From: Macrophomina tecta
Lineage: Eukaryota > Ascomycota > Dothideomycetes > Botryosphaeriales > Botryosphaeriaceae
Length of the DNA stretch: 64,000 nt
Direction: 5' to 3'
NCBI GenBank assembly: GCA_024180945.1
Contig: JAKSGN010000033.1
Span: 558,001 to 622,000 of the forward strand
Part shown: positions 4,865 to 19,084 of the stretch, one piece after another
How the letters are laid out: each line of letters begins with the position of its first letter
Numbering within the stretch: position 1 is the stretch's first letter
Notes under the pieces: generated by a model
The model's database searches: none
Told to the model about the DNA's origin: nothing
What the model saw: the letters and a program-made list of their open reading frames with translations, nothing else
Made by a program: the position numbers and the translations under genes

Positions 4865-7081
4865 TCATAGTAGGACAAGCTCCTTCTTCTTCGCCCCAGC
4901 CAACCACTCGTCCCCACACCCAAACGCTCCAAGCCTTTCATATTCCGTTTTCCCGTTCCGCTCAGCCGCACCCAGAACGATTCCCGCAATCCACGAGCTT
5001 TCGGATCTCGCAAGAGCCAAGCACAGTACATTTGCTTTGAAGGCCATGCCCTCTTCTCCCGGCTTTGCCCTGCGGACGGTCATGGGCTGTTCATCTGGAG
5101 CTCCGTTTTGCTTTTCCAAAACTTCACATCCATAGGCAGGGGCGGCCGCAAGTAGAGTATCCGGCACCACATCAATCACAACGCCACTTCCGGCACGAAG
5201 AATACAATACCTGACTCCAGGACCGTTGCTCCCTTGCTCTTGTCGCTCATTCAATTTTGCATGAAGCACAGCTTCCACGACGGGTCCCTCCACCATCAAC
5301 CACGCCTCCCCAACCGCGCCGAGCGGATTCCTTCCACTCGGCTTGACGTGTACCTGCCTTACCTCAACTAACTTTGTGAACATTTCATTCTCGCCATCAG
5401 CAGCTCCTGGGTCCGCCCACTCGTACGATACCTCGCCATCAACACTGGCCCACGACCAAGTAGGCGCTCGCCACCTCTCCGGTGGCGTTCTCATCCCGTC
5501 GACGCTCGTCCACAGCAGATCCTCCACCAGATTGCCCCTCCACAGTCCACAGACATAGGCTCCCGCTCCACCTTCCCCCTTTCCGCGCAACAACGCCTTC
5601 GCAATCCCACTGACGGCGGGCAACTTGTCCCCCGGCACCGTCAACTCCCTCTTCGTATAGGCCTGCACAATGGCATGCCAAGTGCGCCAATACGCCTCCT
5701 TCTTTCCGGTAATAAGCAGGTTCGGGAGGAGGCGAGGCGTTGTCGCCTGCGGTAGTTTGCGGGACGGCGGGCGGCACTCGCAGCGGGCAGTGAGGCGGCA
5801 TTCGAAGAGGAGTTCGTGGTGGGTGTAGTGCAGGATGCGGGAGCAGAGGACGTGCTCTTGGAGGGCCCAGGCGCGGGTGCGGAGAGGGCCGGATGGGGGG
5901 GTGGGTGGGGTGTGTTTTGCTGTGGTAGGGGTAGAAGAGTAGGACGAGTGGTGGTGTGCAGGGATCCCGCGGACGCAGAGTTTGTATTCCTTGGAGCGTG
6001 CGGAAGATTGGTATTTGAGCTTGGCAGGGCGGGGACGGGCAGAGAAGATGCCGGCGTCGCTGTTGGGGGCAGTGGTGGCGGCGATGGTGAGGTATGCGTT
6101 TTCGTAGATGGAGCTCATCTTTGCAGATTCGAGCTCCCAGTCTTCCTTGGAATCTTGGATTATGCAGAGAGCGTCGATCCAAAGGTAGTAGACGCCAAGC
6201 TGCTGGGCAATAGTGACGGCATCCTGGAAGGACTGCGGCATGGAGGAGAAGTCGATGTGGCGTTTCCTGTCCTTCAGGTTTGCCTTGGTGGTAGTGAAGG
6301 TAGGACCGCCGCCCCAGCAGTGGCTGAGGGAGAGGTATCTTACTCGGGTCGCGGGCAGCTGGCAGAGCTTGAGGTGCTTGGTGGAATTTGGGTCCTTGCC
6401 CACATAAATGAGCCTGGTCGGGACGAATTCATCGCGTCGGCTCTGGCCACATAGGCGGTGCTGATGGTTTTTCAGGCAGTCGTCTATGGCTCTCTGGACG
6501 AAAGCAAAGGAAGCATCCGAGTCGGAGTGCTTTGGAACGGAGGGAGCACGGCCCAATGTCGGCCAGGCCAAAGGCTTGTCTGAGTTGGTTTAGACAGCAA
6601 TGTCACTGCGACACGATCAAAGGGGCACGCAAGATGCGAACAAAGCAGGGGAGATGCGCCCGATGTCATTTACAGCCAAAGAGACCGGCAGCACGGAAAG
6701 GACACGGCAAAAGAAAGGAAAAGAAAGGGCCAACTTACCGGCAGGAGCGTAGATTTCAAGCTTCTCGGTGTTGCCTCCATCGTCTTTCACATCCAGGCGG
6801 ACGGGGGCACGTTCGACAAGGTGCAAGAGCAAGCATGGCCTGGTGTTGCGCCAGCTGTGGCAGTGAGCGTCCAGAGCTTGAGCGAGTAGGCGACATCGAG
6901 AGCAAACTTGCCCAGAACGCTTCAGACGGACAGGGTCGAGCTGGAGGGTGAGATGGGCGATTGGGGGAGAGGTTGAGTCCTGGTCGTGATGGGTGGCTGG
7001 GTGGCTGCGGGGATCGAGATTGTTGCACAGCTTGCAGCGGCGGGCAGACTGGGAGCGGGCGAGGGCAGGCGTGCTGGCCAT
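4865..7081 (-). CDS. HET-domain protein (heterokaryon incompatibility family)
   Basis: Two exons, 7081-6739 and 6579-4865, are joined by a 159-nt intron (GTAAGT donor, CTCAG acceptor, split Asp codon), giving about 685 residues. The N-terminus carries the usual cysteine pairs (RRCKLCNN and QVCSRCRLL). The HET core (PF06985) is complete: YLSLSHCWGG, then LPxxFxDA-like SMPQSFQDAV, then YLWIDALCIIQDSKEDW and SSIYENAYLTIAA. Downstream are the customary RAWALQEHVL and RAPTWSWASVDG motifs. HET proteins trigger or execute cell death after non-self fusion; the HET fold is known to relate to TIR. The ATG at 7081 is chosen because it precedes the first cysteine motif and is the only ATG close to it. 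The gene is divergent from the gene at 7657, with about 575 bp between them. The partner or ligand cannot be read from the sequence. Confidence 0.88.
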
Positions 7082-8954: not shown

Positions 8955-10887
8955 ATGCTTTGCAGAACTTGCCTTTCCACGTTCTCGGCGCTTCCGGAAA
9001 TCTACGAAGGCCCACAACATGAGAGCGAAGCAAATCTAAGAAGGGCCGCTGAAGCTGGCTGCAAAATCTGCTATAGACTACTCGCTGCCTGCGAGAGAAA
9101 GGGAGCATGGAAATGGTCTGAAAAAACCAACCCAAAAACACCCCATGCATTTTGATCTGTTTTACATGTCCGAGGCTCCATACCACGACAGACTATATTT
9201 TTATTATGCCACAATCTACCTTGAAAACTTTCTAATATTACCATCAACCTTATTTCCGGATCTAGATAGATGTGGCGAGGAGCTGCAGCAGCAGCAGCAA
9301 TGTGATCCTCAGAACCTAAGCTATCCATGGTCTACTTGTCAAGTTTGAGCAACCAGAAATCCCTCCAGCTTTACATGGCACCCAAGTACTGCTGCGCTTT
9401 TGTCGCTCTGGCTCACAAGATGCCGCGAGACCCATGAATCCTGCCAGGAGCTGGACAGATCTCGCAACATGGACTGGAAACCGAAGAGGCTGCTTGACAT
9501 TCGGAAGCCGCGAAACCCCCGCCTCGTCCTCTCTTCGCAGGAAATTGCTGCAGGTGAGTACGCAACGCTGAGTCATTGCTGGGGTACGAACCAAGATTTC
9601 CTCAAGCTTACATCCGACACCGAAGCATCAATGATCGAAGGCATACCTTTCACGAGTCTGCCAAAGACATTCAAGGATGCAATAGTTACAGCAAAGAGAC
9701 TCGAAATCAGCTACATCTGGACAGACAGTTTGCGCATCACCCAGGCTGGACAAGGGAGTGCCCGAGACTGGGCGGAACACGTGAAGGATATGCCAAAAAT
9801 CTACCAGAACTGCATGATCAACATTGCCGCCGACCGCGCAACGAATCCACACGCAGGAGCATTTTCCGAACGTCAACCTTCTGTCGTGGCTCCCTGTCAA
9901 ATCATTACCGGTGGTGAGGGTGAACAACTGTACACTATCATGCACGATTTCGATCTCACCGGAGCCTACCGAGACGCGCCTCTTACTCAGCGCGGATGGG
10001 TCTTCCAAGAGCGCATGCTATCTCCGAGAGTTGTCCATCTAGGCATGGAGCAATTGTGGTGGGAATGCACGGACATTGGCTTCGCCTCCGAGTTCCTGCC
10101 TACCGGTTTACCGCGAGATCACCCACAGTTTGCGCTGGGACATGTGCCCTTTGAGATCGTCGAACCTGTCGAAAAACCGACTGCTGGTGTCAATTCCAGC
10201 TGTACTACCCTCTCCATGACGGATAAATGGCACAGGATGGTTGGGCACTACTCTAGCCTGACACTTACCTTCCCGGAAAAGGACGTGTTTGCTGCGCTTT
10301 CAGGTGTAGCCGAGCGGTACGCGGCTCTCCTCGATGACGAGTATATCGCCGGTCATTTTCTCTCGATGATGCCTCAGGATCTTTGCTGGATTTCTTTTGG
10401 ACTCGAAAGATCACGCACGCTTTCTTATCGAGCCCCGACGTGGAGTTGGGCGAGCATTTCTCAATCACGGGATAATTTAGTGTGGTTTAGACTGGATCAA
10501 TCAACGAAAGCCCTTGCCTCCATCGTGAGCCACAAAGTTGAACTCCTTGACCAGGAGAATCCATATGGCCCAATACGATACGCCGAAATCACACTCTCCG
10601 CCTTGTTGCTCGACTGCTTCCGTCTCGACGGCCATCCTGCGATCCGCCAGCATGACAAGGTTCTCGACGATTCAGAGCTGGAATGTGTCGTCGACTTCAA
10701 CCCCGGGGACCCGCTAGCTCCCATGCTGAATCCAAAGAGAACAGATCAAGAACCATCTCCACCAACATGGGGCCTCTCAAAAGTGGTCTCAGAAGTTACG
10801 AATCCTGCTCTTTTCAAAGACATGCCCACCGATTTATCGTTCCTCACACCCGAAATTGCGATTATCCCAGACAAACATAACTCTTGA
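8955..10887 (+). CDS. HET-domain protein, disrupted and with altered core motif
   Basis: This is a second HET-family gene, on the plus strand. The N-terminal part (MLCRTCLSTF at 8955, EAGCKICYRLL) is in one frame up to 9155. The continuation (APYHDRLYFYYATIYLENF) is shifted by one base, with the switch in or near the A-runs at 9120-9136. The same frame then meets a TGA at 9346 before the main body, which runs uninterrupted from 9349 to 10887. The body carries YATLSHCWGTNQDF, LPKTFKDAIVTAKRL, QRGWVFQERMLSPRVVHL and YRAPTWSWAS. The usual YLWIDxLCIxQ box reads YIWTDSLRITQ here, so the conserved Cys is Arg and Ile residues are Thr. An unrecognised intron could explain the TGA at 9346, but the one-base offset has no splice explanation. 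It is probably a decaying allele or pseudogene; otherwise it contains a base error. Confidence 0.65.
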
Positions 10888-11163
10888 AGCTTAGTAGGGC
10901 GTTAATCTTGCCAGTTATGTACTCCGAAATTAACGATGTGCAAGGGCTCGTGGTCCAGCAAGTACCTAACCCGGCGGGAATATCTGAGGGGCAATATTTT
11001 CAGCGCCTTGGAGTGTTCAAATAGACCTAGGAAGGCAATAAGGTCACGCCAGAGGGACTCACGAGGCTTCATGAAAGCGGTGTCGTCCCTTTACGGAACA
11101 TCACCCTCATTTGACGCCGCCGTCGGGAAGGCTCTACGTCAGGCCGTCTGTGTGAAGCTCTGT

Positions 11164-11707
11164 TGTAACGAGCGGGCCTCTGCCTCTAAGGATCCAAACA
11201 CCGAAGAGGGAGAAAACCTGTCGAGGGGGTTTTCCTTGAGTGGGTACAAGAAGAGGGTGAGAGCAAGTCGAACACGTGACAAGACTGAGCACTGCGTGCG
11301 AAGGCCGTGTTACTAACAATGTGCTGAATTGTTATTGAAGTTGACCACGAAGGTCAAAGCTATCTAAGGAGTGTGGTTTATATACAAGTAGGAAAGTGTA
11401 TACAATCTAGTTTCTGATCCGTCTGCTCTGTCCCTCGGGAGGGCGGTGACCTTGGGAGCAGACAGAGTAGCTTGTCCTGCTCTGGGTGCTCTGTGGTGTT
11501 CCGGTCCGAGCGCCTTCGGAGCAGTGAGAGCACTATCTTGGCGTCACGTGCTTCACGTGAGCGCGCGTGGGTCCTTTCCACGCCGCACCCGAGCTCCCCA
11601 CTTACTACCTCATCCTGCTGGCCTCGAATGAACCGGGATCCCAATGTAGCTTAGCGTAGGATAGTGTTCTTTGTCCCTATGGTCTGCTGAGGCCGACGGG
11701 GTGTATG

Positions 11708-11740
<33 letters not shown>

Positions 11741-11776
11741 GCTGTTCCCTAACCCTGTGGAGGCTGCGCCGTAACA
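11164..11776 (-). repeat. 3' LTR of the chromovirus (613 bp, with extra 124 bp)
   Basis: It matches the other LTR along its length except for an additional 124 bp at 11621-11744. That segment includes a (CAT)n run at about 11708-11738. The ten-base word CATCCTGCTG stands both just before it (11611-11620) and at its end (11735-11744). The pol reading frame enters this LTR and stops at 11610. Confidence 0.93.
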
Positions 11777-14700
11777 CTATCCCCCCTTTTAGGTCCTTCG
11801 GCCCGAAGGATTCCGTGACGTGTATAAGTTCTTGGTAGGTGACCTTCGCTTCCTTCCGTGACTTTCGCTCATCATGCCCAAGGTTTCTTCGACGCAACGT
11901 CGCCACGCGCTCGTCAGTCGCTGCCGATACGAGATGCCTTCCCCCTGCAGCGCTTGTCGTGCCGCTGGTGCGAAGTGTTTCATTAGCTTGGATTCGGGGC
12001 ACTGCAAGCGCTGTTTGTCGAAGAACCGTAAATGCGACTTGGTGGTTTCTCAGCGCGACTGTGTGTCTTCCCCGCTTGTTCTCTGTCCTGGCTGACTTTT
12101 GTAGGGGCGAAAATTGACGCGGAAGTGGAGAAGGTGGAGGATCAGCTGGAGCGCCTTCATGAGGATGAGCGTCAAATTCTGGTGGAGGAGTTAAAACTCC
12201 AGGAGCGTCGTTCCGAGGTGTACGCTCGTCGTCATCGCTTAAAGAAGCAACTCGCTCTTCTTGAGCGTAAGCGGAAGGGGATGTTTGAACGCGAGCTAGC
12301 GTCCATCGAGGAGTTGGAAAAACTCGAAAAGGAGGATCGCGACAGGCGACGTGCAGCTGGCGAGGACGTGCCAACTCCGGAACGTTCTCCGAGTCCTCCT
12401 GTTGTTGCGGGCTCCTCGAATTCTGGAGGTCCTCAGCCTGACTCGGTGGCTGGGATTGCGTTTCCGTCTGGGGCTGAGTTGTGGATGGATCCGTCCTTCT
12501 GGGGCGACCCCGTTTCCGCGGGAGGTCAGGGTTCTGGCGATGGAATTCTGTGACGAGATCTGGGTGTATGTCGTCCTTTGGCACCCACTGGTTGTCTTCA
12601 TTTCCGTAACCCTCCCATTTGACGAGATATTTGAGCTGACGTCCGAACCGCTTGCAGTCTAGGATCTTCTCGACTGGGTACTGGGTTTCTTCGGCGTCAG
12701 GGTTTTCTGGTACAATCTCTTCTTGAGTTTCTGGGATGGTGGCGTTTTCTGGTGCTGGCTCGAGCAATGCCACGTGAAAGGTAGAGTTCATTCGTGTGTT
12801 AGGCAATTTGAGTCGATAAGTGACTTCTCCCAGTTTTTTTGCAATTTCGAATGGACCGATTTTCTTGAAATCCAATTTGTCGCTCGGTCGTTTTGATTTG
12901 ATGTTTTTCGTGAGGAGGTACACTTTATCCCCCCTTTTAAGGTTCGGTGCCGCCTGGTGCCGTCTGTTGTAGTATTTGGACATCATGATTCGTACATATT
13001 CGAGGTCGAGACTGATGGCTTTGTGCAATCCTCTTAGCTGCTCGGCCTTGAGAACACCTTTCTGGGCCAATTTCCTGCTTGGGATGGCTTCTCTATACGC
13101 GTCTGGTTCAAACCCATAGTTGGCAAAGAACGGGGATACGTTGGTTGACTCTTGTTTGGCGCTGTTATAGGCGAATTGTGCCGTGGGCAGCCATGTGGCC
13201 CAGTCATCCTGTGGGTAGTTGATGTAACAGCGGAGATATTGTTCGAGAGTCCGGTTCATCCGTTCTGTCTGGCCGTCGGTTTGCGCGTGTGCCGTTGTAG
13301 AGAGTTTGTTCTTTGCTCCAAGCTGGCGCGTAAGTGTTTGCCAAAATTCCGATCTCATCAGCTTGTCCCTGTCCGAGACCAATACTTCCGGCATTCCGTG
13401 ATCCGCGAAGATGTATCGGAGAAACGTGTAGGCTAGCTGTTCTGCATTCGATGCTTCTAGGTAGGGCAAAAAGCATGCGTACTTCGTGAGTCTGTCGACA
13501 AAGACTAGGATCGAGTCGAATTTGACTCCTGTGAGCGGATCTCTGGACTCTGGTAGCTTCGTGATGAAGTCTAGTGTGATCCATTGCCATGGTCGTTCTG
13601 GTACTTCCAGGGGTTGTAGTTGTCCGTACGGAGCGTGTGTCGCGGCTTTGCTTCGGATGCAAAGGTCGCATTGTGAAACTATACGCTGGACCATTTTTCG
13701 TAATCCTGGAAAGTAGAAGTTTTGCGTGATCCTCTCGGTCGTTCTGTCGATGCCCTGATGTCCATGCGCGGGTGCTACGTGCATGTCCTTGACGAGTGCT
13801 TCTCGCAGTCTTGTCGGGACATAAATTAATCCTTTGAAGAGAAGCATTCCTTCCCTATCTCGAGCAACACGCGGGTCGTCCTCCAGCGCTAAAAGTTCCT
13901 GCGCGAAGGAGTCCTGAGCGTATGCTTCTCGGATTTTCTGATGCCACGGGTTTGACTCGATGCGAAGCATTGGGAAAGATTGTCTGGCAAGGGTGAGCGA
14001 TCCATCGCTTGTCCACTGCAATACTGCAGGTTGCGGCTCGATTCTTCCTTCCATGTAGTCTACCCTTCTGCTGAGCGCGTCAGCGGCGGCGTTGTCTACA
14101 CCTTTTCTGTGCGTGATCTTGAAATTGTAGGATGCCAATTCTTGTGACCAGCGAACCTGTCGTCGGTTCAGCTCCTTGGTCGTGGTGAAGCGTGTGAGAT
14201 TCTGATGGTCGCAATGCACTATCACCTGTTGGTCGGCTCCTTCCAGGTAGTGTCTCCAGTGCTTGAATGCTGAGACGATAGCCAAGAGCTCCTTATCATG
14301 AGTGTCGTAGTTGAGCTCTGCTGGGGTGAACTTTCTTGAGTAGAACGCGATCGGGTGCCATCTGCCTTCCTCGTCAGGCTGGCTGAGACATGCTCCTAGG
14401 GCGAATCCTGACGCATCAGTCTCTACTTCGATCGGTTTGTCGGGATCGTATATCCCCAAGACGGGTGCTTCGCAAAACATCCGTTTCAGCGAATCGAAGG
14501 CTTGTTGCTGATCGTCTCCCCATTGGAAGCCATGCTCCTTCTGAGTGAGTCGCGTTAAAGGTTCCGTGACCTTTGAATAGTTCCAGATGAATTTCCTGTA
14601 GAAGTTCGCGAACCCAAGGAAGGACTGTACTTCCTTGATCGTCTTTGGTACTGGCCATTCTCTGATGGAATCCAGTTTCGAGTCGTCCATACCGACATGT

Positions 14701-16667
14701 CCGGGGGTGATGACAAAGCCTAAGAATTCTGTTCTTTGTACGTGCCACTCGCACTTATCGGGTGCGATGGTCAGGTTCTTGGCTTGGAGGGTTTCTAGGA
14801 CTTTTCTGACATGCTTCTTGTGTTCCTCGAGTGTTTCTGAGAAGATGAGGATATCGTCGAGGTATGCCAGGCAGAAGATGTCTAAGTATTCGCGCAGCGT
14901 GTCGTTGACGAGCGACTGAAAGGTTGCTGGCGCGTTTGTAAGCCCGAATGGCATTACCGTGTACTCGTAGAGTCCTAGCCTCGTTCTGAAGGCTGTCTTC
15001 CATTCTTCCCCTTCTTTGATCCTAACCAGGTGATATCCGTCCCTGAGGTCCAGTTTCGTGAAGTACTTTGCATTCCCTAACTTGTCCTGGAGCTCATCGA
15101 TGCGTGGGAGCGGGTATCGGTTCTTGATCGTGATGTCGTTGAGTTGTCGATAGTCGACGCAGAGGCGTAGCTTGCCATTCTTCTTGGGGACGAAGAGGAT
15201 CGGATATCCGGCTGATGACGTTGATGGTCGAACGTATCCTCGTTCGAGGTTCTTCTCGATGTATTCCTTCAAAGCCTCCATTTCCTTCTTCGATAAGGAG
15301 TAGATAGGCTTGTAAGCCGGTTTCGTTCCTGGCTTGAGCGGAATCTCGTGGTCCCATGGTTGATGTTTGGGCAAGTCTCCTTTTCCTCTTTCTTGGCAAA
15401 CGGCAACTAAGTCCCAATACTCTTCGGGTACCGTTTCCATTTCTGGTATTGGAGGTGTTCCTTGTGGTTGCTGCCACATCTCCAAACTGCCGTGTTGTCC
15501 TCCTTTGATCCTCGCAGGATCATCTCCTCCGATGGGAGTTGGACAGTCCTCATCCCTTGGCCTTTCCCGTTGGGCCCTGGCCAATGCTCTTTGTTGCACC
15601 GCCGGTGAGGGTTTGATGTACATGAGGCAGACCTGTTGTCCTTGGCGTCGCATACGCCTGAATGCCTCTCCTGAGATTGTCTGGACGTCTACGGGAGGTT
15701 CCAGGGCTGCCAATTGCTTCCGCGAAGCCTTACTCTTGGCCTTACGCTTTTTCCGCGTAGTCCTTCGTGATAAGTGTTGTACCTGAATTTCGGGAATACT
15801 TGACTCGGTAGGGCTTACTCCGCTTGAGGCGCTGCATTTTACCGAGGAGGCGGCGTCTCGTACGCTGCAGTCCTGGTCCTGTCTTAGGCCTTCCTCAAGG
15901 TTGCCGTTGATGCTGCCGTCACTGGGCCTTACGCCATCGTTTGAGTCTTGCGTTTCTTCTGATGATTCGAGGGTATCGTTTCGCTCAGTAGGGCTTATTC
16001 CTGCGATAGGGTTGCATTTTACCAAGGAGGCTTCGCCTTCTGCGTCGCAGTCCTGGTTCTGACTTACACCACTATCGGAGTCGCCTACACAGTTGCCACA
16101 TTCAGGCCTTACACTGGCTACTTCCCGTTTCATGCTGAAGATGTATCCTTGGAAGATGTCTAGCAGTTCCTGTTTGATGTTCTTATAACTGCTTTCTGGG
16201 TTCTCGATGATGTCCCAAATATCCTGTCGTAGGAAGAGTGTATCGCTCGCCCAGTCGATGAGGGGGTTGCGAGTCCTGAGCCAAGGCATTCCGAGGATAA
16301 CGTCGTGTCCCGGGATCCTTTGGACATCAAGGGTGACCCAATCGGTGTGTCCGTTGATTTCTAGTGAGACTTCTTCTGTTTCGATGCGCACCCATCCTCC
16401 TCCGTAGTCGGCGTTTCTTCCGTCGAATCCGCTGAGAGAGTAGGGTTCTTTCTTTTTTCGATAAGGGATGTTCAGTTCTTGTACTAGCTCGTTGTGGATG
16501 AAGTCTCCGCTTGATCCACTGTCGACTAGTATCGAGATCGTGCGTCCTCGCAGGACTCCGGTGATCTTGAATTGCCCCCAAAGTTTCTTTCCAGTGAGAG
16601 TTTCCGTTTCCGATGTGCGTGATACCATGTGAAGGGACCTAGACTGTGGCCCCTGGGTCGATCCCAA
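11610..16667 (-). CDS. pol: Pol polyprotein (protease, RT, RNase H, integrase, chromodomain)
   Basis: An open frame of about 1685 codons, entered by -1 frameshifting from gag (see 16682-16691), so the listed 5' end is only the first start-like codon and the frame is already open upstream. In order: aspartic protease (ILVDSGSSGDFI, about residue 46), reverse transcriptase (LDLRDGYHLVRI, MPFGLTNAPATF, catalytic YLDD near residue 600), RNase H (VETDASGFALGA, DKELLAIV), integrase with an HHCC zinc finger (HGHQGIDRT to CDLCIRSKA) and DDE core (ITLDFITKLP, VLVSDRDK, TERMNRTLEQYL), then a chromodomain (VEKILDCKRF, YLVKWEGYGNEDNQWVPKDD) ending near 12550. The last 310 or so residues are low-complexity, lie opposite the antisense gene and end in a poly-Asp run inside the 3' LTR. 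Their coding value for Pol is doubtful. Confidence 0.95.
11777..11791 (-). promoter_or_regulatory. Polypurine tract of the retrotransposon
   Basis: In element orientation it reads TAAAAGGGGGGATAG and abuts the TGTTAC start of the 3' LTR. That is the position and composition required for plus-strand DNA priming. Confidence 0.85.
11874..12553 (+). CDS. Antisense Zn2Cys6-like/coiled-coil protein inside the retrotransposon
   Basis: This is a spliced gene running opposite to pol. Exon 1 is 11874-12060 and exon 2 is 12105-12553. The 44-nt intron has a GTGTGT donor, a CTGAC branch site and a TTTTGTAG acceptor, and splits a Trp codon. The product is 211 residues. Residues about 24-54 hold six cysteines spaced C-x2-C-x6-C-x8-C-x2-C-x6-C, the spacing of Gal4-type Zn2Cys6 clusters. 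They are followed by an unbroken charged heptad-like stretch (EKVEDQLERLHEDERQ through ELEKLEKEDRDRRR) predicted to form a coiled coil, then a Pro/Ser/Gly-rich tail. The stop codon falls opposite the end of the pol chromodomain. A TATA-like TGTATAAG lies 46-53 bp before the ATG, just past the LTR, so the LTR may act as a bidirectional promoter. DNA binding is inference. I recall similar Cys-rich plus coiled-coil frames in fungal gypsy elements but cannot name a family. Confidence 0.7.
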
Positions 16668-16681
16668 TGCCGTAGGGCCGT

Positions 16682-16691
16682 CTAGTTTTTT
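16682..16691 (-). promoter_or_regulatory. Gag-Pol -1 ribosomal frameshift site
   Basis: In gag frame the last codons are CCA AAA AAC TAG, giving the heptamer A-AAA-AAC (16691-16685) immediately before the gag stop (16684-16682). Slipping back one base enters the pol frame (AAA AAA CTA GAC). About seven bases after the stop region begins a possible stem: GGCCC pairing with GGGCC, enclosing a GGG/CCC hairpin. The heptamer type and spacing match known retroviral sites; the fold is judged by eye. Confidence 0.85.
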
Positions 16692-18499
16692 GGCTTCGGA
16701 TAGCCGTAGACTTCACTGTGCATGTAGTCTTCCCATTCGTTGACTTGAAGGTATGCTTGTTTCCAGTTGGTCCATTTATTGGTGCGCAACTGTTTTCGCT
16801 GGTAGACTATGTCCTTTCGCACCTGGTATCGGAAGGTTGGCATGTTGAGTTTCTCGTCCGGTATCCACTGGAGTGTGTGGTTCTGGATGGTTGCCGTGCC
16901 ATGCTGACAAAGAATCCTTGCTAACTCTCGGAGGGAGTCGTAGTCTGCTTGCTGTCGAGCAGTCATTCCTTGATGATGGAGCGTCACGAGTGCGGTTTCC
17001 TTTGTGACGATGAGTTCGTACTTCTTTCCATCTTGCTCGATTCGGGTTTCCCAGAGGGTCCCTTGGCGCCATGTCCACAGCACCGTGAGGGCCAATCCTC
17101 TCTCGTGGGGAATCCAGATTACCTGGGCGAGTTGATCGTTCTCGTCCGTCATTTCTGCGCTAATCCCGTACTTGGCTGCAAGGCGCTCGAGTTCCGGAAG
17201 GGTTGTGGGGTCCGGCACAGCTTCTGCTTCGCTGTCCGTTGAGTCGTATAGTTCTCCGGTTTCGCTGTTCGCGAGCTCCTCGTCCAAGGGGAAGCTGTTA
17301 ATAATATCGTCGGTCTCGATGACTTCTTCGTTCCTAGTCATCATACCGAATTGTCGCGGTTCGTGGGGGTACCATCCCGATATGTCTTTGCTGCTTTGGT
17401 GCATCTGGCAGTCATCGTCGTAGCAGGCTGTCCAGTGCAGCGTATCATGGTTGTCTTGGCGGGATGCGACCGATGCTTCGCGCTGAGCGCTCGAGGTCTG
17501 CTTTCCATCCTTCTTGTTTCGAGGGTTCTGCGGACACTTGGGAGAAAAGTGTTTGTCACTGCCGCAGGTGATGCAGAGTCGATCCTTGTAGCGCTGTTTC
17601 TGTTCGTCCGTCCAGTTCGGATTAGGTCCTTTGGGCTTCTTGTTGCTGTTTCGACCCTTATTTCCTTTCTTATCATCTTGACGGTTGGCGGCGTCGAGGG
17701 CCATAGCGTCTCCGCCTTCGAGGGTTGTTCTTTCACGGCGAGGCTTCGAGGTGTTGGCTTGTCGAGAACCCATTTTCCATTCGTACATGCGACCGTCGAT
17801 CTGAGACGCAAGGTCTACCATCTTCTGGAAGGTGGATGGGTATTCGTGGGTAATCATGTTCTTCTTGACTTCTTCCTTCAGGCCTTTGTAGAAGAGGTCG
17901 CGGAAAGTCTCGTCTGACCATTCGAGGTAGGCTGCAAGCTGTTGAAACTTGGTTGCGTAGACAGCTACAGACCCTAGTTGTTTAACGGTCATGATATCGT
18001 TAGAGGCTTTGCGGACTTCATCCCGATCGTTGAAAGTGGCCCTAAGGTTGTCTGCGAATCCCGTGTAGGTGCCGAAGATTTCCTTGGTCTTTTCTCGTCT
18101 CTTCTCGAGAGAGTGTTCGTTGGCTAGGTGGTCGCGAAGGTATGGTTCCATCCATGCCTCTGCCGTTCCTCTGAGGTAGGTTGATGCGAAGAGTACTTCC
18201 TCGGCGTCGCTGTCGAATTGCGCTTGATTGAACTGGAGGTAGCGTTGCATCTGGAGTAGGAATGATTGAAGCTTCTTCCTGTCCCCATCGAACTTCTCGG
18301 GTGCCGCTACTTTAACCTTAGTAGCGCTCCGCTTTGTCGTGTGCTCGATCAGTCGAGCGTTCTGAGTCTTCAGCTCCTCGATGAGCTGCAAGAGCTCAGC
18401 TCTGGTGGGCTCCGTTTGCTGTGCGGGCTGAGCTGGCCCCTGGACACCCTGAACCTGACCCTCGGCCGGGTCGACCTCCATCTGAGATCCTGGTGCCAT
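16682..18499 (-). CDS. gag: Gag polyprotein with CCHC zinc knuckle
   Basis: 605 residues from the ATG at 18499. An N-terminal Pro/Gln-rich stretch leads into a Ty3-type capsid region (APEKFDGDRKKLQSFLLQM, FASTYLRGTAEAWMEPYL, FADNLRATFNDRDE, FQQLAAYLEWSDE). One CCHC nucleocapsid knuckle, CITCGSDKHFSPKC (C-x2-C-x4-H-x4-C), lies near residue 315. A further 270 residues follow the knuckle, which is long for a Gag. The stop follows the A-AAA-AAC slip site directly, so most ribosomes make Gag alone and a minority make Gag-Pol. The frame is intact. Confidence 0.95.
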   Translation of the reverse strand: MAPGSQMEVDPAEGQVQGVQGPAQPAQQTEPTRAELLQLIEELKTQNARLIEHTTKRSATKVKVAAPEKFDGDRKKLQSFLLQMQRYLQFNQAQFDSDAEEVLFASTYLRGTAEAWMEPYLRDHLANEHSLEKRREKTKEIFGTYTGFADNLRATFNDRDEVRKASNDIMTVKQLGSVAVYATKFQQLAAYLEWSDETFRDLFYKGLKEEVKKNMITHEYPSTFQKMVDLASQIDGRMYEWKMGSRQANTSKPRRERTTLEGGDAMALDAANRQDDKKGNKGRNSNKKPKGPNPNWTDEQKQRYKDRLCITCGSDKHFSPKCPQNPRNKKDGKQTSSAQREASVASRQDNHDTLHWTACYDDDCQMHQSSKDISGWYPHEPRQFGMMTRNEEVIETDDIINSFPLDEELANSETGELYDSTDSEAEAVPDPTTLPELERLAAKYGISAEMTDENDQLAQVIWIPHERGLALTVLWTWRQGTLWETRIEQDGKKYELIVTKETALVTLHHQGMTARQQADYDSLRELARILCQHGTATIQNHTLQWIPDEKLNMPTFRYQVRKDIVYQRKQLRTNKWTNWKQAYLQVNEWEDYMHSEVYGYPKPKN

Positions 18500-18580
18500 T
18501 GCTGTTTCCTAAACTCGTTAGGGGGTGATACCTTACCCGATGAGACTTGATCTCGGAACCTTCCTCTCCTTGCAAGGATG

Positions 18581-18590
18581 GTGGTCAAAG
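18581..18590 (-). promoter_or_regulatory. Primer-binding site, possibly self-primed
   Basis: Immediately after the 5' LTR the element reads CTTTGACCAC. It does not start with TGG as a tRNA-3'-end-primed site would. Eight bases (TTGACCAC) are complementary to GTGGTCAA inside the LTR (18775-18768), 36 nt after the first base of TATATAAA (from 18811), where the transcript is expected to begin. This resembles the self-priming of Tf1/sushi elements. Confidence 0.5.
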
Positions 18591-19079
18591 TGTAACGAGC
18601 GGGCCTCTGCCTCTAAGGATCCAAACACCGAAGAGGGAGAAAACCTGTCGAGGGGGTTTTCCTTGAGTGGGTACAAGAAGAGGGTGAGAGCAAGTCGAAC
18701 ACGTGACAAGACTGAGCACTGCGTGCGAAGGCCGTGTTACTAACAATGTGCTGAATTGTTATTGAAGTTGACCACGAAGGTCAAAGCTATCTAAGGAGTG
18801 TGGTTTATATACAAGTAGGAAAGTGTATACAATCTAGTTTCTGATCCGTCTGCTCTGTCCCTCGGGAGGGCGGTGACCTTGGGAGCAGACAGAGTAGCTT
18901 GTCCTGCTCTGGGTGCTCTGTGGTGTTCCGGTCCGAGCGCCTTCGGAGCAGTGAGAGCACTATCTTGGCGTCACGTGCTTCACGTGAGCGCGCGTGGGTC
19001 CTTTCCACGCCGCACCCGAGCTCCCCACTTACTACCTCATCCTGCTGTTCCCTAACCCTGTGGAGGCTGCGCCGTAACA
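18591..19079 (-). repeat. 5' LTR of the chromovirus (489 bp)
   Basis: It starts TGTTACGG and ends CGTTACA in element orientation. It contains a TATA box, TATATAAA, at 18811-18804. It appears identical to the 3' LTR apart from lacking the 124-bp segment found there. Confidence 0.95.
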
Positions 19080-19084
19080 TCTGT

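Follow-up and report, generated by a model that had tools for sequence, protein, structure and literature searches.

Antisense genes lying between pol and the 3′ long terminal repeat (LTR) of a retrotransposon are already known in fungi and plants, and Zhao et al. are said to have described one of them in 2011, brtn, as the antisense gene of the Boty-like retrotransposons of Botrytis cinerea. Here we describe such a gene in a 64,000-nucleotide stretch of the Macrophomina tecta genome (contig JAKSGN010000033.1, positions 558,001–622,000; hereafter the window, whose numbering is used throughout). The minus strand of the window contains a complete Ty3/gypsy chromovirus, W, at positions 11164–19079, flanked by the target-site duplication TCTGT, and the opposite strand carries a gene at 11874–12553 whose product resembles fungal Zn2Cys6 transcription factors and may act on the promoter region of the element itself.

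The passages on brtn in PMC7264820, PMC4227169 and PMC8365987 present it as an extra antisense gene of Boty-like elements, and a passage of PMC5987419 mentions a BRTN-like transcript in Monilinia. The likeness to W is that of a fungal Ty3/gypsy chromodomain element with one antisense extra gene between pol and the 3′ LTR; the two genes were compared by position only, and these passages mention neither Zn2Cys6 proteins nor arrays in the unique 3′ region of the LTR (U3). Among the matches listed for the W product, most of which are unnamed, there is no protein named BRTN. In plants, the corresponding position holds the antisense frames called aORF-3R (Grande gene23, RIRE2, PvRetro13, Retand TRP28); the relevant passages of the reviews PMC11963269 and PMC7264820 state that TRP28 is predicted to bind DNA, that one of these products has a nuclear location and that a regulatory role has been proposed, and give the function of retrotransposon antisense extra genes as unknown. 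As far as these passages go, the plant frames encode other proteins (TRP28, an SMC domain), no U3 arrays are mentioned, and the Retand region between pol and the 3′ LTR measures 2.9–6.6 kb, unlike that of W.

Among animal retroviruses, HBZ of human T-lymphotropic virus 1 (HTLV-1) is likewise a regulator made from an antisense transcript on the 3′ LTR side, and Tas of foamy virus is an element-encoded DNA-binding activator of its own U3. The proteins are unrelated to that of W, which would unite antisense coding with U3 binding. Among the papers listed in a search of the open PubMed Central (PMC) literature, with subscription papers outside it, none dealt with a Zn2Cys6 antisense gene with coupled U3 arrays, and the main text of a survey of fungal LTR elements (PMC3248453) contains neither "antisense" nor "zinc". 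A preliminary description of this DNA, made from the sequence alone, did not know such a gene as a described component of Ty3/gypsy elements, though it mentioned similar frames in fungal genomes. With brtn and plant aORF-3R on record, to call the gene undescribed is too strong: antisense genes at this place are known, and what is possibly new is the mechanism of a self-encoded U3 regulator.

Structure and coding signature of the antisense gene

The gene consists of two exons on the plus strand. Exon 1 (11874–12060) encodes a basic N-terminus and a Zn2Cys6-like cluster, exon 2 (12105–12553, stop codon at 12551–12553) encodes a long helix (coiled coil) and an acidic C-terminus, and the phase-1 intron of 44 nt between them (12061–12104) begins with GTGTGT and ends with GGCTGACTTTTGTAG (CTGACTTTTGTAG). 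The spliced product has 211 amino acids; the unspliced frame is interrupted by stops. A TATA-like box (TATAAG, 11823–11828, plus strand) lies 45 nt 5′ of the ATG and belongs to the presumed antisense promoter. The preliminary description regarded the 3′ LTR as the upstream region of the gene; the LTR does lie upstream, but it ends at 11776, and 97 nt separate it from the ATG. The antisense stop had been placed opposite the end of the chromodomain, and it does overlap the final 17 nt of the Pfam chromodomain match (12537–12677).

Splicing at this junction is deduced from homology. The homologues P0010, P0011, P0012, P0013, P0015, P0018 and others align with the W product through the junction, in the segment C-D-L-V-V-S-x-x-D-W; they were compared as proteins and are mostly metagenome gene calls, presumably uninterrupted, P0011 being an annotated protein of a fungal metagenome-assembled genome and possibly spliced. 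W63, which follows D and is encoded by the split codon, is retained as W in 7 of the 12 homologues in alignment A2 and replaced by F in three and by L in two.

Six intact families of the genome that were modelled in full (W, L074, L075, L082, L092 and L095) share this layout, with the antisense frame opposite the gag-pol strand between the pol domains and the 3′ LTR. All six have a phase-1 intron at the corresponding place, with lengths of 44 (W), 47 (L074 and L082), 48 (L092) and 49 nt (L075 and L095); because the intron length varies, exon 1 occurs in three distinct registers to pol. In L056, a copy of a second subfamily (around G000:C20:1384200-1385130), an insertion of about 550 nt within the zinc-cluster exon splits the antisense gene.

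The antisense strip of W is present in five copies at 100% identity in the 54.1-Mb genome. A further 17 distinct copies, whose alignments each span 590 or more of the 680 nt, contain 7–12 in-frame stops and differ from W chiefly by C>T and G>A, the mark of repeat-induced point mutation (RIP); the antisense frame is kept in most copies of the family (5 identical intact and 17 RIP-decayed). Since RIP yields C>T and G>A, we counted the A>G and T>C differences from W in 15 decayed copies, dropping one of the identical pair L018/L019 and excluding L028, L021, L022 and shorter matches for length. Of 36 exonic sites with such transitions, 25 occupy the third codon position in the spliced antisense frame, where 11.5 would be expected (p = 7 × 10−7), and exon 2 is significant by itself (21 of 29, p = 7 × 10−6). 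When exon 2 is read in the other two frames, the third-position test gives p = 0.95 and 0.88, and pol third positions show no enrichment (exon 1, p = 0.86; exon 2, p = 0.99). By class, a change is silent for the antisense frame alone at 25 sites, for pol alone at 8, for neither frame at 2 and for both at 1, from 88, 115, 63 and 4 opportunities, respectively. The antisense-silent position corresponds to pol codon position 1 in exon 1 and to position 2 in exon 2, a shift that is predicted for a spliced antisense gene.

Transversions fall at third positions in four of four sites in exon 1 and three of eight in exon 2, and the intron changes faster than the exons (6/21 versus 36/270 A/T sites). 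Changes in the RIP direction show no excess at antisense-silent sites, with 103 of 122 hit as compared with 70 of 98 pol-silent sites and 122 of 144 silent in neither frame. In the three alignable families, the ratio of nonsynonymous to synonymous divergence (dN/dS) is 0.37–0.46 for the antisense gene and 0.60–0.72 for the pol tail.

The preliminary description, which first proposed this gene and its 44-nt intron, allowed that loss of the cysteines or the intron among related elements, or change in the strip explained entirely by constraint on pol, would speak against it. Both the cysteines and the intron are conserved, and it is the antisense rather than the pol third positions that are enriched. 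Together with the homologues that span the junction and the intron in six of six families, these data leave us almost certain that the frame is a real spliced protein-coding gene.

The preliminary description also confined the gene to DNA dispensable for Pol, which is only partly right. The pol frame is free of stops across the antisense gene in all six families, whereas the other two frames have 3–10 stops each; shuffling the codon order gives 3.2–6.2 expected stops, and none in 0.03–2.2% of shuffles. The first pol stop lies inside the 3′ LTR, past the polypurine tract, in every family (at 11610 in W); the six share parts of their 3′ ends and are not fully independent. The pol tail thus stays open although pol-silent sites are not favored there, and avoidance of a long 3′ untranslated region is one guess at the cause.

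The encoded zinc-cluster protein

A homology search with the 211-residue product gave nine homologues at E ≤ 0.001 (best 3 × 10−78), chiefly over exon 2, with Botryosphaeria dothidea as the sole named organism. A profile of 14 members found 138 proteins at E ≤ 0.01 among 7996 candidates scored; among the matches listed (120 of the 138) are proteins of Pyricularia, Colletotrichum, Cordyceps, Metarhizium and others, mostly annotated as "hypothetical". No relatives of the product were found in the viral and prokaryote collections, as expected for a fungal element.

The cluster occupies residues 25–54 (11946–12035, plus strand) with the spacing C25-x2-C-x6-C-x8-C-x2-C-x6-C54, as reported before, and fits the Zn2Cys6 pattern C-x2-C-x6-C-x5-12-C-x2-C-x6-8-C, which is the cysteine pattern of PF00172. 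In the 14-row alignment A3, four of the six cysteines are invariant and the other two are conserved in at least 90% of rows; the spacing between the second and third cysteines is wider in the L075, L092 and L095 clusters. The cysteines and the intron are kept across proteins that are about 30% alike. A Zn_clus match at E ≤ 1 is obtained for 8 of the 14 members of A3 (best 0.0031), and the best Zn_clus stretch of the W protein (residues 16–38) is out of register with the six cysteines. The predicted structure of homologue P0018 is closest, weakly, to Zn2Cys6 proteins in a comparison that re-aligned Foldseek's own candidates, other folds being outside it. The homologue profiles support the cluster, the fold comparison may agree with it, and the product is very likely a DNA-binding protein of Zn2Cys6 type.

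The long coiled coil assigned to exon 2 in the preliminary description agrees with a helix of about 80 residues predicted on a homologue; such a helix probably dimerizes. For contacts with DNA, the "Gal4-like" label finds no support: judged by eye, conservation is lacking in the basic loop that connects the second and third cysteines. Like Leu3, Hap1, Put3, Ppr1, Gal4 and Pho7, the family has the cysteine pattern, predicted short cluster helices, a following long helix and an acidic C-terminus; unlike these factors, its members have only about 200–250 amino acids, lack a conserved contact loop and are encoded by a retrotransposon.

U3 arrays and their divergence together with the gene

In the 3′ LTR of W, six GAGCA/TGCTC sites in both orientations form an array at 11424–11532, upstream of a TATA-like box that is assigned by sequence only to the sense promoter (11377–11385; pol strand, GTATATAAA), with two CACGTG boxes beside it (11545–11559); the 5′ LTR has the same sites at 18851–18959. 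These two arrays are the densest GAGCA stretches of the window, with six sites each and at most three outside the LTRs among the matches listed.

We tested the 165 nt of U3 next to the repeated region (R), upstream of the sense TATA, against 2000 shuffles. Each family has a repeated short word: GAGCA six times in W (p = 0.0035), GAGCC seven times in L074 and GTTCA eight times in L082 (neither reached in any shuffle), GGATA five times in L075 (p = 0.007), GATCA six times in L092 (p = 0.0005) and GATCC five times in L095 (p = 0.0095), where the 6-mer GGATCA also occurs five times, as in none of the shuffles. The words occur in both orientations in most families, and those of L082 are regularly spaced (+2, +10, −29, −37, +49, +57, −76, −84). 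Counts of one family's word in another are 0 or 1, except for GGATCA, which is common to L092 and L095; the idea that the motif of these two families tracks the zinc cluster rather than pol was dropped, since the identity table gave it no support. In two families added with the design fixed, the 6-mer repeat load is 26 for L102 (0 of 1500 shuffles) and 19 for L105 (p = 0.0013). L103 (gene and palindrome present, no homology in R and the unique 5′ region, R/U5) and L104 (degenerate, without palindrome) have no comparable U3 region and stand outside the test. No enrichment of CGG/CCG was found in U3. CACGTG is present in the proximal U3 region of all eight families (W, L074, L075, L082, L092, L095, L102 and L105) and is possibly a host basic helix–loop–helix site. 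By eye, CCCGTGCGGG occurs in two or three copies in the distal U3 of each of L075, L092 and L095.

The arrays vary together with the gene. Among W, L074 and L082, pol DNA is 94.9–95.6% identical and R/U5 94–98%, and blastn aligns neither U3 nor the antisense gene up to two thirds of its length; between L074 and L082, the final portion of exon 2 is 79% identical. L075 and L095 are 97.4% identical in pol, with a synonymous divergence (dS) of 0.09, and have a dS of 0.62 in the antisense gene. All six within-clade pairs show high identity in R/U5, low identity in U3 and high identity at the gene end and in pol, and in all of them the part encoding the zinc cluster and coiled coil is low (42–74% by block). 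Between the two low blocks, sequence surrounding the polypurine tract (11780–11793; pol strand, AAAAGGGGGGA; assigned by position and composition) forms a conserved island, which blastn aligns over 36–79 nt at 87–100%; in 100-nt blocks it reaches 85–95% in four pairs and is blurred to 67–74% in the two W pairs. Since the synonymous divergence of the gene is several-fold above that of pol, recombinational exchange is needed and fast evolution alone does not suffice. A template switch near the RNA 3′ terminus could transfer the two blocks in one event.

A palindrome with an odd centre, CTTCGGCCCGAAG (11796–11808), lies between the polypurine tract and the antisense TATA-like box; from the LTR edge to the ATG, these three follow in the same order in W, L074, L075 and L052. 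The palindrome has 192 genome copies versus 5 for a reversed-pattern control, and its outer arms vary between families (TCC/GGA, ATC/GAT, TTC/GAA) with complementarity kept. At least 27 of the first 100 places listed adjoin an antisense-gene match by hand comparison. We read 20 of the other 73, six of them copies of one family: 17 are preceded within 30 nt by a run of at least five C, and 15 show a permissive zinc-cluster-like pattern that accepts C or RIP-derived Y (without control); the pattern has wider spacing in L092 and is absent from L079, L083, L084 and L087. The palindrome as the target of the protein was set aside, as it does not change between families with zinc clusters mostly 18–64% alike; it could just as well act together with the polypurine tract or in the antisense promoter.

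Proposed role, alternative explanations and the element as a whole

We propose that the retrotransposon uses the antisense frame as a functional gene, read from a separate promoter that lies between 3′ LTR and ATG, and that the product would be a small Zn2Cys6-type protein in which a zinc cluster at the N-terminus is followed by the helix of about 80 residues and an acidic C-terminus. A dimer would bind the array of short family-specific U3 sites just upstream of the sense TATA and control transcription of the element. Regulator and sites would form a cassette that recombination swaps between elements, with pol, R/U5 and the polypurine-tract island staying in place. Expression, dimerization, array binding and the sign of the effect are steps that we infer; activation is modestly favored over repression by where the sites lie and by the acidic nature of the C-terminus. 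Action of the protein on its own U3 array is the reading we prefer, as somewhat more probable than all others combined. Of the roles named in the preliminary description, regulation of the element's own transcription is favored by the family-specific arrays that vary with the gene, and these arrays also speak indirectly for binding of the protein to short DNA sites; integration targeting and capture of host control received no support.

Several observations weigh against this proposal or its premises. In the codon-position test, exon 1 alone is not significant (four of seven sites at third positions, p = 0.064), and five of the eight exon 2 transversion sites are at second positions. The W protein scores 12.5 bits with Pfam Zn_clus (PF00172), below the gathering cut-off of 21. 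The U3 test region was picked after the U3 sequences had been read, and among 195 overlapping control windows taken from gene and pol, 6 also contain a word five times or more, one of them six times. The best single 5-mers of the later families L102 and L105 reach only p = 0.013 and 0.12. Control repeat loads are 19–26 in the distal U3 of five of six families (a control that overlaps the proximal region in L074 and L082), 8–20 in R/U5 and 2–18 in gene and pol (n = 67), and the proximal loads of L075 (16) and L105 (19) are below some of them. Zinc-cluster identity follows the motif loosely, L095 being nearer to L075 (0.64, GGATA) than to L092 (0.57, GGATCA). Finally, U3 and the antisense gene adjoin at the 3′ end, and joint exchange is possible without a functional link.

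A rival explanation is that the gene is real and encodes a zinc-cluster protein that does not act on U3, the arrays being enhancers for host factors, with the protein acting on host chromatin, integration sites or host genes. Repeats in U3 are common in LTRs and CACGTG is a typical host site; its presence in all eight proximal regions, the loose tie between motif and zinc-cluster identity, the repeats in U3 beyond the array, and the ease with which a template switch in 3′ pol would carry gene and U3 together by adjacency at the RNA 3′ end all fit this account. It has more difficulty with arrays that mostly differ by family in one genome with one set of host factors, with the conserved island between the two variable blocks, and with sites that immediately precede the sense TATA and, in most families, occur in both orientations, and we consider it a minority possibility. 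Within the probability assigned to action on the U3 array, a smaller share, making it rather unlikely overall, goes to copy control, in which the protein would limit its own element by shutting the sense promoter through the array, and a cassette swap would free an element from control by resident copies. The evidence for it is the same as for activation, and the swap of regulator and sites between near-identical elements recalls, by analogy only, the lambdoid phage immunity regions, which are exchanged as a block. The sites are placed as an upstream activating sequence would be, however, the acidic C-termini suit an activation domain by composition, and the matched Zn2Cys6 factors are mostly activators.

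Two further explanations deny the protein itself a part. The antisense RNA might be the functional product, pairing with pol RNA and feeding silencing, with the frame incidental; a passage of PMC7264820 considers such action possible for retrotransposon antisense transcripts. The third-position pattern in the spliced frame, dN/dS below 0.5, and the retention of cysteines and intron between such distant proteins make this very improbable. Overlapping frames can also mirror each other, so that an open antisense frame could be a by-product of pol codon use, and the pol tails of W and L074 match at E = 10−10, partly over LTR and polypurine-tract DNA. A chance or mirror frame is nevertheless rejected by the codon-position test, in which pol-silent sites are not enriched across the gene, and it would not account for distant proteins sharing the cysteines and the junction or for the three exon-1 registers; we regard its probability as negligible.

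The rest of W is that of a chromovirus, with gag, the order protease, reverse transcriptase, RNase H and integrase, a C-terminal chromodomain, LTRs and the 5-bp target-site duplication (11159–11163 and 19080–19084). On the minus strand lie the 3′ LTR (11164–11776), the 5′ LTR (18591–19079), the pol frame (11610–16667), which passes the antisense gene without a stop and ends within the 3′ LTR, and a gag frame of 605 amino acids (16682–18499) with Pfam matches to Ty3_capsid and Retrotrans_gag. The LTRs are mutually identical over 457 and 43 bp; in U3, the 3′ LTR is longer than the 5′ LTR by about 124 bp (11621–11733, including a (CAT)n run). On one side of W there are two frames with HET domains (PF06985), at 4868–6571 (minus strand, E = 3 × 10−29) and 9400–10884 (plus strand, E = 3 × 10−23).

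Returning to the preferred reading, we see about an even chance that an entire clade of fungal chromoviruses encodes an antisense sequence-specific transcription factor opposite an open pol frame and swaps matched cassettes of regulator and U3 operator, which would give these elements promoter specificity of their own and possibly immunity groups. If the W protein is a U3-specific regulator, a retrotransposon would have its own DNA-binding transcription factor and identifiable targets, open to ordinary binding and reporter assays; a set of small fungal zinc-cluster proteins, mostly annotated as "hypothetical", may then be transposon genes; and the families would offer Zn2Cys6 domains that form a natural series, related to one another but differing in their candidate target sites.

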